Assembly: GCF_032362555.1 (NCBI RefSeq)
Contig: NC_083515.1
Location: 9,645,001-9,709,000 of the forward strand
Length of the DNA: 64,000 nucleotides
Direction of reading: 5' to 3'
Origin: Amyelois transitella
Taxonomy: Eukaryota; Arthropoda; Insecta; Lepidoptera; Pyralidae
Of this stretch, positions 1 through 14,065 are shown one piece after another; the stretch's first letter is position 1; every line of letters starts with the position of its first letter. Below the pieces are notes generated by a model. That model worked only from the letters and a program-made list of their open reading frames with translations. It was not told the DNA's origin and searched no databases. Position numbers and translations under genes: made by a program.

Positions 1-3000
1 GCAACAGAAAGCAAAATCATAGTGGACATTTCGAATCGCTCGCGAGCATGCTCGACGAGCGTGTTGGACGTGCTCGGATCATACGTACTAGCAGTATGTT
101 CAGATTTGAACACACCAGCACAGGTAAGGTTCTTACATTTTATTTATGCCTAATAACGGCCTATTGACGGCCTCTGTAGCGCAGCGGTAGTGCGCTTGTC
201 TGTGTCACTGAAGGTCCTGGGTTCGAATCCCGGCCAGGGCATGATGAGAAACGAACTTTCTCTGGCTGGCCTGGGTCGTGGATGTTTATCTATATAAGTA
301 TTTATTATAAAATATAGTAGGATCGTTGAGTTAGTATCTCGTAACACAAGTTTCGAACTTACTTCGAGGCTAACTCAATCTGTGTAATTTGTCCCGTATA
401 TATTTATTTATTTATTTATAACTAAAGAATCTCTGTTTTATGATAACTAGCTATATTTATTAGGTACTTATCAGGGAATTTTCAGACGACGAAATTCGTT
501 CCAGCTCAACGTAATCGTCAAATTTCAGTAAATCTAAGTACTTTTTCAGTGGATTCATGTGTGTGCAGTTGAGATTATGGGCATATCATTAGTTTGACAG
601 GCATTAATAGGTTTAAAATTACATACATACAATCAGGTCTATATCCCTTGCGGGGTAGACAGAGCCAACAGTCTTGTAAAGACTGATGAACGCCTACGTT
701 CAGCTATTTGGCTTTAGGATAGAATTGAGATTCAAATAGTGACAGGTTGCTAGCCCATCGATAAAAAAAAACTCAGTATATAAGCCTTAAAAAATACATT
801 TAGTAAAAGTCGACTAAGGTATATGCTTACAAACTTGGGATTCTTTTTTTAAGCGATGGGTTAGCAACCTGTCAATATTTAGATCTCAATTCTATCATTA
901 AGCCAATAAGCTGAACGTGACCGATCAGTCTTTTCAAGACTGTTGGCTCTGTCTTCCCCACAAGGGATATAGACGTGACCATATGTATGTATGTATGTAT
1001 GTATTCAAAAAATTCAAAATTTTTTATTCATTATTATAGGATATTATTATATCGCTTAATAATTGTCGGTTTAACAACTTGGTTGACGTCAAATATATTA
1101 CTTAAAAACTAAGTTTACTGCCGCTTCCACGGCGTCAGTGCAGAAGAAGCGGTAACAAACTGCACTGCAGCATTTTCTTCAACAACGTCAACTTCACAAT
1201 ATTAAATTACACTTAGAATAGAATGTGGACGGGAGAATACATTGTTCACGGGAGATTTATATATTTATGAGATTTAATATTGAAAAAAGAAAAAAAATAT
1301 ATATATATATTTTATGGATTGCCAATTTTAAAAAGATTTATGTACAGAGTGTACTGAAATTTTGATTTAAGTTCAAATTAAACTACAATTAATTACGAGG
1401 TTCCTGTGTCAAGCTCGAGCCAGATGTTTTTATCATTAAGGTAATCATCAGTCCTATAATAAGCCTTCTCACAAAGTACTTTCTTTACATACTCTTTGAA
1501 TTTTCGGTTGGGCATATCAAGAACAGACTCCGGCAACCTATTATAAAATCGTATACAGTTCCCCATAAATGATTTACTGACTTTGCTAAGCCTATGAAAC
1601 GGCATGACTAATTTATGTTTATTACGTAAATTTCTATCAGTTGTGGCACTAACTTTTTGAAAAAAAAGAGGTATTTTTCCTAACATACATTATAAGATCA
1701 AAAATGTACTGGGACGCTACTGTAGGTATGTTAATTTTCTTAAAGAGTTGTCTTAACGAGTCTCTTGGTCCTAAGCCGTAAATTGCGCGAACGGCCCTTT
1801 TCTGAATTATAAAAATAGTTTGTATATCAGCCGCGCTACCCCATAAAAGTAAACCATAAGATAACAAGCTATGAAAATAGCTGAAATAAACAAGCCTAGC
1901 TGTAGCTACATCTGTCAATTGTCGGATCCTCCTAACAGCATAAGCGGCAGAGCTAAGTCTATTGGATAGTTTAGAAATATGAGCACCCCACTGTAGCTTT
2001 GCATCAATTATAATTCCTAAAAACTTTGTATTTTCAACAAATTCTAATTTCTGGCCTTCCAGTATTATGTCAGTATTGGCCTGCCTTACGTTTGGAAGGG
2101 TAAATTTAATGCATTGGGTCTTATTAGCATTTAAAAGAAGATTGTTGGTTGAGAACCAGATAGATATGGCCGACAGTATATTATTAACCGAACTTACATT
2201 TTCGCTATGGCGATCTAATTTAAATATTAAAGAAGTGTCATCGGCAAACAGCACTATACCCGCCTGTTTTTCCACCATAAAAGGCAGGTCATTGACATAT
2301 ACCAAGAAGAGGAATGGTCCTAAAATTGAGCCCTGAGGAACACCCATTGAGACGCTTGATCCGCTATATCCGTATGTATCCGTATGTACATGTATCCAAA
2401 ATTAAAGTTAAGACTTTTTCTGATTTTCATTTCTGATGATCTATATATTTTGTTGGTGTAGACCAACAAAATATACCTATATCCTATAATCTATACATAT
2501 AATAAAATAGTAAAAATATTTTGTCTGTACATTTAGTGATTTTGACTGAAATGGATAGAGGGACACTTAGAATGAATAATAGAAAGCAAAAATATTTTTT
2601 TTTAATTTCTTGTCTGTCTGTATGTATGATCACGATTATCTCCGAAAGTACTGAACCGATTTACTTCAAACTTTCACCAATTGCTTTGTTTTAACTCAGA
2701 AGAACATTTAAAGTTTGTTTCATCAAAATCGGTTCACTAAAAAAAAAGTTATCGACATTTGAATGAACTCAAGGCATGAGTTTGCCTGCAAAGTTACGAA
2801 ATTTAAAATTCAAGGTCATTTATCATTATACGACAGCATTATACCTATAACATATAAATATAAGTGAAAGGCGACTAAGGGATATGCTTATAAACTTGGG
2901 ATTCGTTTTTAAGCGATGGGCGAGCAACCTATCACTATTTGGATCTCAATTCTATACATACATAAAATCACGCCTCTTTCCCGGAGGGGTAGGCAGAGAC

Positions 3001-6000
3001 TACCTCTTTCCACTTGCCACGATCTCTGCATATTTCCTTCGCTTCATCCACATTCATAACTCTCTTCATGCAAGCTCGGCGGTTTCGAGTACTTTTGACC
3101 TGACCCTTTACCAGGACGTCCTTAATTTCATCAAGATATGTTCGTCTAGGTCTTCCCACTCCGACCTTTCCCTCCACACCCTCCATGTATATCTGCTTAG
3201 TCAACCTGTTTTCAATCTCAATTCTATCATTAAGCCAAATAGCTGAACGAGGCCATTCAGTCTTTTCAAGCCTGTTGGCTCTGTCTACCCCGCAAGGATA
3301 TAGACGTGACCATATGTATGTAGTCTACTGTAATTTCGACACCACTGCAACGGCTTCGATGGTACAGTGGTAAGCGCATGAGACGAAGTGAAGTTGACGG
3401 TTCAAGTTCGAATCCCAAAAAAAACAAGAGGTGTTTTTTTTTATTAAAAACATTTTTTATGTGTTTTTTGAGTATTTTATTTTAAAAAACCGAAAATCAA
3501 AGAGAGGAGTTATGAATGTGGATGAAGCGAAGGAAATATGCAGAGATGGTGGCAAGTGGAAAGAGGTAGTCTCTGCCTACTCCTCCGGGAAAGAGGCGTG
3601 ATTTTATGTATGTATGTATGTAAACCGAAAATCAAAATACTACATATAATAAAACGGTAAAAATATTTTGTCTGTATATTAAATATTTTGACTGAAACGG
3701 ATAGATAATTTTTTTTTACATTTTTTGTCTGTCTGTCTGTATCCGACTGTATGATTAAGATTCAACTCGAACTTTACGCGGACGAAGTCGCGGGCAACAG
3801 CTAGTCCTATCTATAAATAAATCGATAAATTACAGTTGTACATAGCGAAGTTACCCGAATCCGGTCGGGAAGCTGAAATACAATGGATAAGAATCAGCGA
3901 TCCTATTGAAGCGCCGACCAGTGTTGCCACATCCAAAGTGGAGTATTTGCAATTGGAGCATAAGGACTCGAAAGATGACGTCAGTGAGTAGTAGCTTTAT
4001 GTGTTAACAACTTAAATTTATACAAATAGCTATCTTTGGGTACCAAATTTGGCTTTTCTTTACAATAAAGTTTTTGAATTTGAATTTGAATTTGAAAATT
4101 TGAATTTGAATTTGGGTGCCGTGTGGCTTCCGGCACCAATAGAAAAAAGAATAGGACCATGGACCATTACATCTCCTTCCTATGGAAGTTGTAAAAGGCG
4201 ACTGAGGGATTGGCTTATAAGCCAAATTTGGTATTTGGTTCCGTTCCGGTACGTTAATGTAGGTGATAATCACCACTTGTACGATTTCCATGAAGGAGAT
4301 ACAATTTCAATGTAACTTACATTTTATTAACGAGCATAAAAATCCATACTAATATGATGGCGAAAAGATTTGTATGTTTGGTCGTAACTTACATTCTTAA
4401 AAAGTACTCGACCGAATTTGACGAAATTTGAAATTTTTTAACATCATTAAGGTTAACGGACTAACCTAATTTTCCAGTTTTTATTAATATAAGTGTGGTT
4501 AATAATGTATGGTTATTTCAGAATCATTCACCGCGATATATTTTGCGCCCGTGTCTGACAAGAAATTACCACTAATTGTGTGGCCGCACGGAGGGCCACA
4601 TTCAGGCTTCGTGAACGCGTTCTCCATAGAAGCAGCTCTGCATAGTATGTTGGGTGAGTGTCAGCTTCTATTGCTATACTAGCTGCGCCCCGGGGTATCA
4701 CTTCTGTGGGAATTTGGAGATTAAAAGTATTGATCATGTTATTCCAGTGTAATTCATGTTAGACAAGTGTTGGCGATCGATAGTTCATTGATAGTCGATA
4801 GATCAACGCTATCGATAATATTGATCGTAATTACTATTATTATTATTTAAGTTTTTTATACTTTTGTACCAAACTAAGTTATCGATATTATAGATGATTT
4901 CCAAGGTCAAGTATCAATAGTTATACTATCGATAGTCCGGCAACAAAAAAGTATTGATCATGTTATTCCAGATAACAGGTTATGAGGTACAAAAGAAATT
5001 TATTGCTTCAGAAATCGCTTCTTAAGGTTCACTGCAACTTTATGGTGACGGAAACTAAAGAATAGAAACGTGATTAAGGAGATATAATTCGCCTGGGTGA
5101 TATCACAAGTTACCTTATTTTTACCCAGCATATCTCTCTGATACGATTCTGAAAAATTTGCTTGATAGTTAAATTCCTACTGTACAGTCAGGGGTAAATA
5201 AGCCTGACCCTTTCTCCATATTCAACCAGAAGAACAAATAATAATTTAAAAATTGATAACATAAAGTATTAGTTAATGGCTTCTATATAAGTATACATAT
5301 TACACACTAACACGTATGTGTATATATATAACATATATGTATTTAAGTATAATCAAATCTACTCTGTTATGGGCCAGATTTATATGTCCCAAACGTCACC
5401 ATTGGAATGTAAATTCTATATTTCAGTAATATATTTTCTGTTCAATGAAGAACAAAAAATCAAACGAACAAATCTTGCAGGCTTCGCGTCCCTCCAAATA
5501 AACTACCGCGGTTCATCAGGCGCGGGTCAGGCCTCCATTTTATGCCTTCTCAAGAATCCCGGAGATTTCGACGTCAAAGACTGCAAGCTGGCCACAGACG
5601 TGGCCCTAACTCGGTACCCGTTGGACCCCAATCGCGTCGGCCTCACTGGCGGGTCCCACGGAGGGTTCCTAGTCACCCACCTGAGCGGCCAGTATCCGGA
5701 TACTTATAGAGCGGTCGTAACGAGAAATCCAGTTATAGATGTCGCTAGCATGTTCAATTCAACGGATATAGCTGATTGGTAAGTTACACGTATTATGAAA
5801 CTAATGACCCGATAAGACTTCGCACGGGTAGAATTTTACTATGACTAGATACGCAGCACATTAAAGCAGCTAAAGAAAATAGATATGGTTGGTAAGTTTA
5901 TTTTTATGTGTTTAGATTTCTCATGCTGAGAAACTTCATGTGATACCCGAGAAATACTGAGAAACAAGGTCCCTCAGGTAAATATTTTTTATATTATGGT

Positions 6001-8641
6001 TATAAAATAATAAATAATGCGATGATTACAATAACTATTTTCTTCTACGGAGGCCTAACCTTAGCTACAATTTATTTTTTGATTATTTTGTTTATAATTA
6101 TTACATTTGAAACACAATTTACCTTACGTTTATGTTTAATTCACAAATCAAATGACTGGTTGATTCCTATAGTCTGATTCAATGTTCTTATCCATCCCAT
6201 CCTAACATGATAAATACTAAACATTTTATTTATTTGTTTGTTTCCTTTCACGCTTTATTAAAATGTAGACTAATGTCTTTAAAAGAAGGACCATGGGCTC
6301 CCTGAGGTTTAATACCGGGGCCAGTATAAATGAGTTTGTGACAAGTGTTGGCGATCGATAGTTTATTTATAGTCGATAGATCAACGCTATCGATAATATT
6401 GATCGTAATTACTATTATTATTATTTAAGTTTTTTATACTTTTGTACCAAACTAAGTTATCGATATTATAGATGATTTCCAAATCAAGTATCGATAGTAA
6501 AACTATCGATAGACCGGCAACGCTTTTGTTACTATTAAAAAAAACCATTTTTATTTAACAATTTTGCCTCAGGTATGGCCTCCGTCAGAATAAATTACCG
6601 AGGCTCTGTGGGGCAAGGAGAACGTTTCTTAAGAAGTTTACTCGGCAAATGTGGATCTATAGACATTGACGATTGTCTATTGGCACTAACCTCTTTGGAA
6701 GATACCATAGACAAGACCAATGTGTTCCTCTATGGTGGGAGTTATGGCGGATTCGTAAACGCCCTTTTGGCGGGGAGATACCCGGATCGGTTTAAAGCTG
6801 TAGTGTTGAGGAATCCGCTGATAGATTTAGCAACGAAGGGGCATTACGCTGATAATTCGGATGGGTAAGTACCCAGAGTATATTATGGAAACATAAATTC
6901 ATATTACAATTACGTCTGGTTTCCTGGGTTAGGGTACGAAGAGACTACATCTTTCCACTTGTCATGAACCCTTAATACGTCTTCATATTATATTCGAAAC
7001 AATAATTTTTTTTTCAATATCGGATGTCGAAATCGCTCGTACCTCAGCTGGTTATCAGTCACCGAAGTAGAAAATAAATACCTAACAAGATTCTTAACGG
7101 AATTTACGATTACAATGACTTCATGAACGGTCACCACAAAGGCAAATTAAGTTTCTGATTTATAAAACATTCATTTATTCATAAAACACGTCTGTATCCC
7201 TTCCGGGTAGACAATGCCAGCAGTCTTTTCAAAGACTGATAGGCCACGTTCACCTGATAAGCTTAATGATAAAATCGAGATTTAAATATAAATACAAAAA
7301 AGAATAGGACCACTTCATCTCTCTCCCATGGATGTCGTAAAAGGCGACTAAGGGATAGGCCTACAAACATGGGATTCTTTTTTTGGCGATGGGCTAGCAA
7401 CCTGTCACTATTTGAATCATTAAGCCAAATAGCTGAATGTGGCCATTCAGTCTTTTCAAGACTGTTGGCACTGTCTGTCTCACAAGGGATATAGACGTGA
7501 CCATATGTATATGTATGTATGAGATTAAAATAGTGACAGGTTGCTAGCCCATCGCCTAAAAGAAGAATCCCAAGTTTATAAGCCTATCCTTTATAAAACA
7601 TAAGTACAGAAAAGCTGCAAAAAGTGTGCAGTACAAAGAAAAGAGTAGTTGTTAAATGAAGGTATTATATCTCAGGTGTGCAGTGGAAGCCGGCTTCGAA
7701 TTCAAAGAGTCCGGGGCGGTTTCCGAAGTGGAACTGCTGGCGATGAGGCGGTGCTCGCCGCTGGTCCACGTGCACAAGGTCAAAGCCCCGACCGCGCTCA
7801 TGCTGGGCTCCGGGGACAAGAGGGTACCACATTACCAGGGGCTCGAGTACGCCAGGAGGTTGAAGGCTAACGGAGTGGAAACCAGGTGGGGTATTACAAC
7901 GACTGAACATAAAAAAAATCCTTTAGTGAAAATTTCCAAAGTGGATTAATAAAAATGTAAACTATTTCTTTACATACATACATATATATGGTCACGTCTA
8001 TATCCCTTGCGGGGTAGACAGAGCTAACAGTCTTGAAAAGACTGAATGGTGACCATTCAGTCTTTTCAAGACTCAGCTAGCAGCATTTTCAGCTATTTGG
8101 CTTAATGATAGAATTGAGATTCAAATAGCGACAGGTTGCTAGGCCATCGCCTAAAAAAGAATTTCTTTACTTCCTAACTAATATTATATGTGTGAAAGTA
8201 AGTTTGATGTTTTCTTTTCACGCGTTATCAACTAAACTTTTAGGATACATAGTTACACGATCACTTCGAAATATGTATACATATATGTAAATGGTTATGT
8301 GTGCAATAAATATGTAACAAATTAGCTTAGCGTGTTTACTGTGATAAAGTATAGGTAATTTATATAACAATGCTTTTACCTACATATGTAAAATTACATA
8401 TAAAAAATCACGCCTCCGTCCCGGAGGGGTAGTAAAGAAACTATATCCCTCCATACGTCATAAGCTTTTTTCACATTCATACTTATGTACATACATATAG
8501 TCACGTCATTCATAAGTCTCTAATAATGTGTTTGTCTTCAGGATATACATGTACGATGACAACCACTCTCTCTCGTCGCCAGCAGCTGAGATGGACAACT
8601 TGATCAACGGCAATCTATGGCTTCTCACACATTTATCATGA
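1..8641 (+). CDS. APEH: Acylaminoacyl-peptidase (APEH), 3' part of gene
   Basis: APEH is a serine peptidase of the prolyl oligopeptidase family that removes N-acylated residues from blocked peptides, normally in the cytosol. Exons with matching phases are 1-123 (5' end outside the window), 3836-3983, 4522-4653, 5481-5778, 7676-7885 and 8542-8641 (TGA). All introns are GT-AG. The first two exons cover the end of the beta-propeller and the linker (SDLNTPAQ then LYIAKLPESG). The next gives the oxyanion region (WPHGGPHSGF). Exon 5481-5778 holds the nucleophile motif GGSHGGF (Ser codon 5654-5656), exon 7676-7885 the Asp (LMLGSGDKRVP, codon 7815-7817) and the last exon the His (DDNHSLSS, codon 8564-8566). 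The catalytic triad and C-terminus therefore look intact. A homologous exon with the same phases lies at 6573-6864 and is listed separately. A possible AATAAA signal lies at 8896-8901. The family call is secure; the upstream part of the gene is not visible. Confidence 0.93.
168..420 (+). repeat. tRNA-headed SINE family 1, near full length
   Basis: The head resembles a tRNA, with an A-box-like TAGCGCAGCGGTAGTGCGC and a B box GGTTCGAATCC near 217-228. A family-specific body containing GAGTTAGTATCTCGTAACAC follows, ending in a (TTTA)n tail. The element lies 45 bp downstream of the APEH donor at 124. Other copies lie near 23.2, 26.9, 31.1, 51.6-52.4 and 60.4-60.7 kb. Confidence 0.8.
421..623. other. 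APEH intron, nothing recognised
   Basis: AT-rich intronic sequence between two repeats. I see no exon, RNA or repeat signature here. Confidence 0.5.
624..1003. repeat. Two TATG-tailed SINE-like copies in inverted orientation
   Basis: A minus-strand copy (624-768, beginning with the CATA tail) faces a plus-strand copy (about 812-1003, ending in (TATG)n), with about 45 bp between them. Both lack the 5' hairpin head. Together they form an imperfect palindrome inside the APEH intron. Confidence 0.75.
1004..2395 (-). mobile_element. Jockey-type LINE, 5'-truncated 3' half with broken reverse transcriptase
   Basis: On the minus strand, 2347-1649 encodes the reverse-transcriptase core, with MGVPQGSILGP, the catalytic VLFADDTSL motif and the downstream NKTQCIKF/TKFLGI region. 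A second frame, 1686-1393, continues the C-terminus (RFYNRLPES...). The two overlap in different frames near 1649-1686, so the ORF is frameshifted. The 3' untranslated region runs to about 1010. It recurs on its own near 9.3, 24.8-25.0, 25.45 and 46.8-47.0 kb. The 5' portion of RT, the endonuclease and ORF1 are missing, so this is a dead copy. Confidence 0.88.
2490..2800 (+). mobile_element. Helitron-like element, 3' truncated
   Basis: It begins A|TCTATACATATAATAAAA and carries the internal text shared with 56569-56945 (TGACTGAAATGGATAGAGG, CTGAACCGATTTACTTC). The CTAG terminus seen in the 56.6 kb copy is lost here. Confidence 0.65.
2871..3322 (+). repeat. TATG-tailed SINE-like copy split by a LINE insertion
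   Basis: The left part 2871-2955 and right part 3215-3322 are one element interrupted by the LINE 3' end at 2956-3214. The 13-bp sequence ATCTCAATTCTAT occurs at both junctions (2943-2955 and 3215-3227), as a target-site duplication would. Confidence 0.8.
2956..3214 (-). mobile_element. TATG-tailed LINE, 3'-end fragment
   Basis: On the minus strand this encodes the C-terminus of a non-LTR retrotransposon protein ([34 protein letters not shown], stop after YPSGKEA), followed by a TATG tail. It is 5'-truncated and flanked by a 13-bp duplication, so it arrived by target-primed reverse transcription. Related 3' ends lie near 3.5, 8.4, 13.0, 16.3, 38.1, 45.1, 48.3, 57.6 and 57.8 kb. Confidence 0.82.
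3343..3425 (+). repeat. tRNA-like SINE head fragment
   Basis: GATGGTACAGTGGTAAGCGC resembles an A box and GTTCGAATCCC a B box, followed by a poly-A run. There is no complete tRNA cloverleaf, so I read it as a SINE head, not a functional tRNA gene. Confidence 0.4.
3505..3622 (+). mobile_element. TATG-tailed LINE 3'-end fragment
   Basis: Plus-strand copy of the family C-terminus ([14 protein letters not shown].. to the stop in GGCGTGA) and its (TATG)n tail. Confidence 0.7.
3638..3804 (+). mobile_element. Helitron-like element, internally deleted
   Basis: It shares its start (CATATAATAAAACGGTAAAA) with the 2.5 and 56.6 kb copies and ends GCGGGCAACAGCTAG|T, the CTAG terminus expected of a Helitron. 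It stops 31 bp before the APEH exon at 3836. Confidence 0.65.
4069..4240 (+). repeat. TTGAAT microsatellite fused to a SINE-like 5' part
   Basis: A (GAATTT)n run at about 4072-4113 is followed by the head of the TATG-tailed SINE-like element (GTGCCGTGTGG..CCGGCACC at about 4117). The element decays after about 4240. Confidence 0.6.
4769..4944. repeat. TATCGAT-rich MITE, copy 1 (APEH intron before the catalytic exon)
   Basis: This 176-bp element has imperfect terminal inverted repeats (GTTGGCGATCGATAGT at one end, ACTATCGATAGTCCGGCAAC at the other) and several internal TATCGAT palindromes. It is almost identical to 6347-6521. The two copies sit in the introns on either side of exon 5481-5778. 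Confidence 0.8.
4945..5480. other. APEH intron, nothing recognised
   Basis: AT-rich intronic sequence running to the acceptor CTTGCAG at 5480. I see no other signal. Confidence 0.5.
5779..6346. other. APEH intron between the two alternative exons, unique part
   Basis: AT-rich, with no recognised repeat until the MITE at 6347. If the exons are mutually exclusive, selector or branch-point elements would be sought here. Confidence 0.45.
6347..6521. repeat. TATCGAT-rich MITE, copy 2 (between the two APEH exons)
   Basis: Direct-orientation copy of 4769-4944 with only a few differences. It ends 51 bp before the alternative exon 6573-6864. Its inverted ends could pair with those of copy 1 in the transcript, looping out exon 5481-5778. 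Confidence 0.8.
6573..6864 (+). CDS. APEH: Alternative (duplicated) catalytic-serine exon of APEH
   Basis: This is an open exon with a clean acceptor (TTGCCTCAG) and donor (GTAAGT). It encodes a diverged version of the exon at 5481-5778: GMASVRINYRG, GSIDIDDC, LYGGSYGGF (Ser codon 6740-6742), then RYPDRFKAVVLRNPLID. By eye it is about 45% identical to that exon, with one two-codon gap. It enters in phase 1 and leaves in phase 2, exactly like 5481-5778, so either exon can join 4653 to 7676 in frame. Including both would shift the frame, because 298 + 292 nt is not a multiple of three. That arithmetic suggests mutually exclusive splicing. The nucleophile Ser is kept but His after it becomes Tyr, and the terminal Trp (split codon) becomes Gly. 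Alternatively it is the surviving exon of a collapsed tandem APEH paralogue. Confidence 0.75.
7170..7600. repeat. Three TATG-tailed SINE-like copies (-, +, -)
   Basis: A degraded minus copy (about 7172-7280), a plus copy (7285-7528, ending in TATG repeats) and a truncated minus copy (7530-7595) stand back to back, 76 bp or more before the APEH exon at 7676. Confidence 0.75.
7970..8165 (-). repeat. TATG-tailed SINE-like copy
   Basis: It begins with the CATA tail, then TATATCCCTTGCGGGGTAGA. The hairpin arm CAGTCTTGAAAAGACTG is partly duplicated around 8045-8075, and the 5' head is missing. Confidence 0.75.
8400..8480 (-). mobile_element. TATG-tailed LINE 3' end, short relic
   Basis: AAAATCACGCCTC..CCGGAGGGGTAG is the reverse complement of the LINE's last codons and tail. 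The rest has decayed. Confidence 0.55.
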
Positions 8642-11953: not shown

Positions 11954-12321
11954 GTAAGTTTGAAGTGTTACTGGTAATGGTGTGTATGTTAGTTAAGCTA
12001 CTAGTTGCTTGGTGAGTTCGGGATGAGAGGCACAATTTGGACTTAGAGCAACTTTAACGTGTGAATTGAAGACATTAAAGTCGCGATGATCTCACTTTGT
12101 TCCATACTGCAGCAGCGGTTGACCCATTACTTCTTTAGATTATTTTTTAGGTGTTAAATATCTAGGACGACTAGTCCAAACTTAAGTTTTGGGCAATGAT
12201 ATCATTTCACCTCGACTAGTGAAAAAAATCGAACCGAACATGACATTAAAGTAATGAATCATAGAATCGTGACTCATCCGTTTCATCATAATTTTCAGGA
12301 GGTCGAGCTATGTAGAACAAG

Positions 12322-14065
<1,744 letters not shown>

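Follow-up and report, generated by a model that had tools for sequence, protein, structure and literature searches.

Candidate mutually exclusive exons for the nucleophile segment of the acyl-aminoacyl peptidase APEH in Lepidoptera

A 64-kb stretch of the Amyelois transitella genome (contig NC_083515.1, positions 9,645,001 to 9,709,000; hereafter the window) from the navel orangeworm moth, carries part of the gene for the acyl-aminoacyl peptidase APEH (acylpeptide hydrolase), in which two successive exons, D1 and D2, encode different versions of the segment that holds the nucleophile serine. We consider it probable (about 0.8) that the two are mutually exclusive, anciently kept within a single APEH gene, and that the choice between them exchanges the nucleophile segment, probably altering which N-acetylated residue the enzyme releases. 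This reading is carried by the observed anatomy of the gene, the frame logic of the exon pair, its conservation, and the match between paired isoforms outside the exon.

Results

Either exon completes the APEH reading frame

D1 (298 nucleotides, nt) and D2 (292 nt) both have AG/GT splice borders (ttgcag/gtaagt for D1 and cctcag/gtaagt for D2), lengths of 1 mod 3 and equal phases, and the segments that they encode are identical at 44 of 98 aligned residues. Placed alone between the exons at 4522-4653 and 7676-7885, D1 or D2 keeps the frame as far as the stop that ends at 8641. Inclusion of both brings in a premature stop that lies 407 nt before the last junction, and skipping of both brings in one that lies 141 nt before it; messages with such premature stops are usually subject to nonsense-mediated decay. 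D2 was found by tblastn with the D1-form protein (E = 3e-18), and its open frame survives in only 0.3% of 5000 single-base shuffles. An earlier note on this DNA had given the coordinates, splice sites and phases of the pair correctly, its identity estimate of ~45% by eye agrees with the count, and its statement that either exon joins in frame and that both together break it is borne out by the positions of the stops.

The gene was assembled exon by exon after 20 kb of upstream DNA (two pieces of 10 kb from the same genome) had been added to the window, and seven APEH coding exons were located upstream. Position 1 is the first base of the window, and values of 0 or below count back from that base. 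The exons are as follows.

-6275 to -6064: upstream APEH coding exon
-5901 to -5735: upstream APEH coding exon
-5336 to -5182: upstream APEH coding exon with an apparent GC donor
-4373 to -4236: upstream APEH coding exon
-3513 to -3384: upstream APEH coding exon
-2666 to -2542: upstream APEH coding exon
-1728 to -1557: upstream APEH coding exon
8 to 123, plus strand: exon common to both forms (end of the propeller), placed by frame and by letter identity with protein P0001
3836 to 3983, plus strand: shared exon; with its end at 3983 the translation agrees letter for letter with the public protein
4522 to 4653, plus strand: shared exon with PHGGP (glycine of the oxyanion loop, porcine residue 509), which joins D1 or D2
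5481 to 5778, plus strand: D1, the ordinary APEH nucleophile segment, GGSHGGF ... STDIADW
6573 to 6864, plus strand: D2, the alternative nucleophile segment, GGSYGGF ... KGHYADNSDG
7676 to 7885, plus strand: shared exon with the catalytic Asp and Arg677 (GDKRVP)
8542 to 8641, plus strand: last APEH coding exon, with the catalytic His (DNHSLS) and the stop

The spliced D2 form equals P0001 letter for letter, apart from the first four residues of P0001, which lie on a further, unplaced exon. In the database this protein is named 'acylamino-acid-releasing enzyme isoform X2 [Amyelois transitella]', and it contains the APEH_N propeller (PF19283) and Peptidase_S9 (PF00326), both above the cut-off.

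The exon pair belongs to one gene

Tandem duplication can leave surviving pieces of a gene, and D2 might in that way be what is left of a tandem APEH paralogue after the loss of its other exons. However, when the 84 kb made up of the upstream DNA and the window were searched by tblastn, each located APEH exon was matched and only this one was matched twice; no second copy of any other APEH exon was found there at E < 0.1, and the remaining matches had E values of at least 0.36. Because duplication in the 84 kb is confined to this one APEH exon, D2 does not have the appearance of a remnant paralogue. When the 327-Mb genome was searched in six frames with D1, the query on which our genome-wide statement on copy number rests, two matches were obtained at E ≤ 0.001, namely D1 itself and D2. 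In addition, the members of four of the six isoform pairs compared (Choristoneura, Cydia pomonella, Pieris brassicae and Vanessa atalanta) are identical outside the exon, over 528+102, 510+102, 508+103 and 539+104 residues, and the members of each of these pairs sit on equally long contigs. The two other pairs are from Loxostege, where gene names suggest two assemblies (501/506 residues identical upstream and 103/103 downstream of the exon), and from two species of Maniola (496/521 upstream and 100/103 downstream). D2 is, moreover, intact in 26 species. We therefore reject a remnant paralogue, on the unduplicated other exons, the two D1 matches in the genome and the identical isoform pairs, and regard it as scarcely credible; the preference of the earlier note for alternative exons over such a remnant is upheld by the same results. 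Acquisition of D2 from another S9 gene is not favoured either, as its borders match those of D1 and its best solved relative is porcine APEH, at 59.7 bits (next, 39.4 bits).

Conservation and age of D2

D2 segments were counted with the window included, a further D2 search brought in no additional species, and the 26 species presumably span ten ditrysian families, of which we take Psychidae (Eumeta) to be the deepest. The earlier note had proposed looking for both exons in other Lepidoptera, and both are indeed on record in further species, which brings the number with both to 11: Amyelois, Choristoneura, Cydia pomonella, Pieris brassicae, Vanessa atalanta, Loxostege, Spodoptera exigua, S. frugiperda, Iphiclides, Eumeta and Leptidea. 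A tree was built from 67 exon segments (101 columns), and many of its forks are unresolved. D2 forms a single clade in it (100/100), whose stem measures 0.73 changes per site, and 31 of the 32 lepidopteran D1 rows group together on a stem of 0.13. The Eumeta D1 is placed outside the other lepidopteran D1 rows, and the fork that parts lepidopteran and caddisfly rows from other insects is weak (56/91). Since Eumeta has both exons, the duplication is older than its split from the other sampled species.

Mean identities, taken over 14 entries of which nine are single species and five combine two close relatives, are 68.5% between D1 segments, 62% between D2 segments and 46% between D1 and D2 within an entry. 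After its long stem, D2 thus appears to have been constrained almost as tightly as D1. That both exons encode the catalytic serine and have been under long-term selection, as the earlier note had proposed, is supported by D2 being one clade, present in 26 species, and by the isoform pairs that match outside the exon. A duplication older than the split from caddisflies is neither favoured nor disfavoured: no caddisfly D2 was found with two D2 queries, in a search that needs shared five-residue words, and the only named caddisfly protein recognised among the matches, P0067, is of the D1 type.

What D2 changes in the enzyme

We compared 26 D2 segments with 82 D1 rows, using the residue numbers of porcine APEH. 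The nucleophile Ser587 and Asp624 are kept in all 26 D2 segments, whereas several sites that are nearly invariant in D1 are replaced. Residue 588 is His in 82/82 D1 rows and is Tyr (24) or Phe (2) in D2; Val613 (82/82) gives way to Leu (24/26), and Met619 (80/82) to Lys (26/26). Ile625 and Trp628, each present in 81/82 D1 rows (one row being incomplete), become Asn (26/26) and Gly (25/26), respectively. At residue 597, D2 has Ala (25/26) and D1 has Ser (81/82), with Ile in porcine APEH, and D2 also has Tyr622 (25/26) and Ala623 (25/26). The GGSHGGF motif and the DIPDW-type end of animal APEH are accordingly present in D1 and not in D2. D1 rows read GGSHGGF nearly without exception; the D2 motif itself varies, with GASYGGF in P0018 (Loxostege) and SGSYGGF in P0060 (Galleria).

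The shared part of the active site is intact in D2-bearing proteins. DKRVP (Asp675, Arg677) and DNH (His707) occur in 23/23 of those checked, and PHGGP (Gly509) occurs in 22/23, the exception being a shortened model. The D2 form therefore has the catalytic Ser, Asp and His and the Arg677-Asp624 pair, and, judged from these comparisons, it is by gene and fold an APEH isoform with a departed segment.

The bacterial S9 relatives 8wt1, 5yzm and 7ep9 share Tyr at residue 588 with D2 and Ile at residue 625 with D1; in the HMMER alignment their residue 619 is Phe, Phe and Lys, respectively. The change from His588 to Tyr is a return to the general family state, because these relatives have Tyr. In the same alignments Lys619 is matched in one bacterial protein, and Asn625 has no counterpart in any of the sequences compared.

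PMC4915685 and PMC11049645 place the S1 pocket of DPP4 at Tyr631, Val656, Trp659, Tyr662, Tyr666 and Val711. Of these, Tyr631 corresponds in the alignment to residue 588 and Val656 to residue 613, so two sites fixed in D2 are pocket positions by homology. Lys619 likely occupies an S1 pocket position as well: an ungapped continuation would set Tyr662 on residue 619, but hhalign put a gap after DPP4 Val656. A lysine at this point would suggest a pocket suited to an acidic P1 residue; one possibility in its place is that Lys619 binds a free C-terminal carboxylate, 7ep9 being called a carboxypeptidase.

Introns around the pair and other features

Selection of the exon by RNA pairing between introns drew no support, the duplex energies being no different from those of shuffled sequences in a weak test that used whole introns and 20 two-base-block shuffles per pair. 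Steric blocking by a short intron is not favoured, as the D1-D2 intron of 794 nt is long for simple exclusion, and neither are incompatible U12 sites, since on inspection the borders are GT-AG. The introns to the left of D1 and of D2 share a 183-nt element (4762-4944 and 6340-6521, 96% identical), with inverted termini by eye and only these two full copies in the 84 kb; it could be a mobile element or a splicing element. An exact 25-nt direct repeat (4723-4747 and 4947-4971) flanks its first copy.

Elsewhere in APEH introns we observed a reverse-transcriptase fragment (PF00078) at 1652-2401 on the minus strand and a tRNA-His-like sequence at 170-241 (ARAGORN), possibly the head of a tRNA-derived short interspersed element. 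Downstream of APEH lie two exons of a forkhead-domain gene (12316-14062, PF00250).

Discussion

The explanation that we favour begins with one tandem duplication event, which affected a single exon and dates from early ditrysian Lepidoptera or still further back; both copies would have been kept since. D1 would supply the ordinary APEH segment and D2 an alternative ~98 residues of the alpha/beta-hydrolase domain, with the nucleophile serine, the next oxyanion residue, and the helix and loop that follow the nucleophile on the substrate side. Either exon would yield a complete protein in which the propeller, the oxyanion Gly, Asp, Arg677 and His are common to both forms, whereas both or neither would lead to a premature stop and probably to decay. 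Annotation and frame together suggest that each transcript receives just one of the two exons. The D2 enzyme would be active, and alignment suggests that its replaced pocket residues would change the residue preferred for release.

Several points weigh against this explanation. The Plutella and Heliconius records that we saw contain D1 only, one Danaus chrysippus model carries just the last 36 residues of D2, and four models (P0002, P0003, P0004 and P0006) fuse parts of both exons, all in the same D1-then-D2 order. These fusions are probably prediction errors caused by the exon pair itself; P0104 and P0023 also join parts of both exons. The short-contig source 'lgn', which may consist of transcript assemblies, gives several D1 proteins but none of the 27 matches of the D2 search. 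Clustering of the protein database was at 90% identity, a level that the likeness of the two forms exceeds over the whole protein; a D2 form can therefore hide behind a D1 representative. The isoform names are predictions; NCBI isoform models are usually backed by reads. We found no mechanism of exon choice. Finally, the altered specificity of the D2 form is read from alignment, and its activity is a prediction.

The replacement of several near-invariant D1 sites would also fit a D2 that is expressed but makes an inactive or regulatory subunit that tunes the APEH tetramer, and mixed tetramers are conceivable given that mammalian APEH is a tetramer according to PMC12514842. We think this unlikely, as Ser587 is kept in every D2 segment, and the Asp, Arg677 and His that complete the site are encoded by shared exons, without change in any of the proteins checked. 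Less probable still is that D2 serves as a down-switch, in which double inclusion or skipping leads to stops and decay and the D2 protein itself matters little. The positions of the stops would allow such a switch, but it would need neither a conserved D2 protein nor a full frame nor fixed residues of its own, and D2 has all of these.

A more specific proposal, which we put forward tentatively and consider doubtful, is that ditrysian Lepidoptera obtain by splicing alone another acyl-aminoacyl peptidase, one whose S1 side is rebuilt (Tyr588, Leu613, Lys619) and which acts on N-acetylated residues that ordinary APEH handles poorly, for example acetyl-Asp or acetyl-Glu. Mixed D1/D2 tetramers would then act as an N-terminal peptidase tuned by splicing.

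One gene probably makes two enzymes that would differ in substrate preference, and a splicing swap of the nucleophile-bearing segment, long kept in moths and butterflies, is an unusual route to that end. The two forms differ in only ~98 residues and so offer a clean natural test of what determines acyl-peptidase specificity. APEH regulates protein metabolism and binds organophosphates, as stated in PMC12514842, and a second isoform in pest moths therefore bears on protein turnover and on compound action. Automated annotation already lists the APEH isoforms; among the papers that our searches of the open-licence literature listed, we found no published account of alternative APEH exons or of a second version of this segment.

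Among known enzymes, the D2 form is closest to APEH/AAP itself (porcine 7px8 and 9gne), with which it shares the APEH_N propeller, Peptidase_S9, the Ser/Asp/His triad, the Arg677-Asp624 pair and the fold, and from which it differs in Tyr or Phe588, Leu613, Lys619, Asn625 and Gly628. The bacterial S9 proteins 8wt1, 5yzm and 7ep9 resemble D2 in the GGSYGG motif, and 7ep9 also in Lys at the aligned residue 619, but they have Asp-Ile at 624-625 where D2 has Asp-Asn, and, unlike the APEH pair, they are separate genes with no alternative exon. PKM, CYP4F3 and KHK each produce, from one gene and through mutually exclusive exons, two catalytic proteins that differ in one exon-sized segment, with altered substrate use or regulation; we know of none of these in which the catalytic nucleophile lies on the swapped exon. 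Mutually exclusive exons are themselves a known phenomenon, and the APEH pair resembles those of Dscam, Mhc and 14-3-3zeta, as described in PMC6071210, in its adjacent homologous exons of similar length and equal phase, its two-exon cluster and its probable origin by tandem duplication. It differs from them in that no docking or selector pairing was found and in that what it swaps is the nucleophile segment of a peptidase, which, to our knowledge, is new among mutually exclusive exons.
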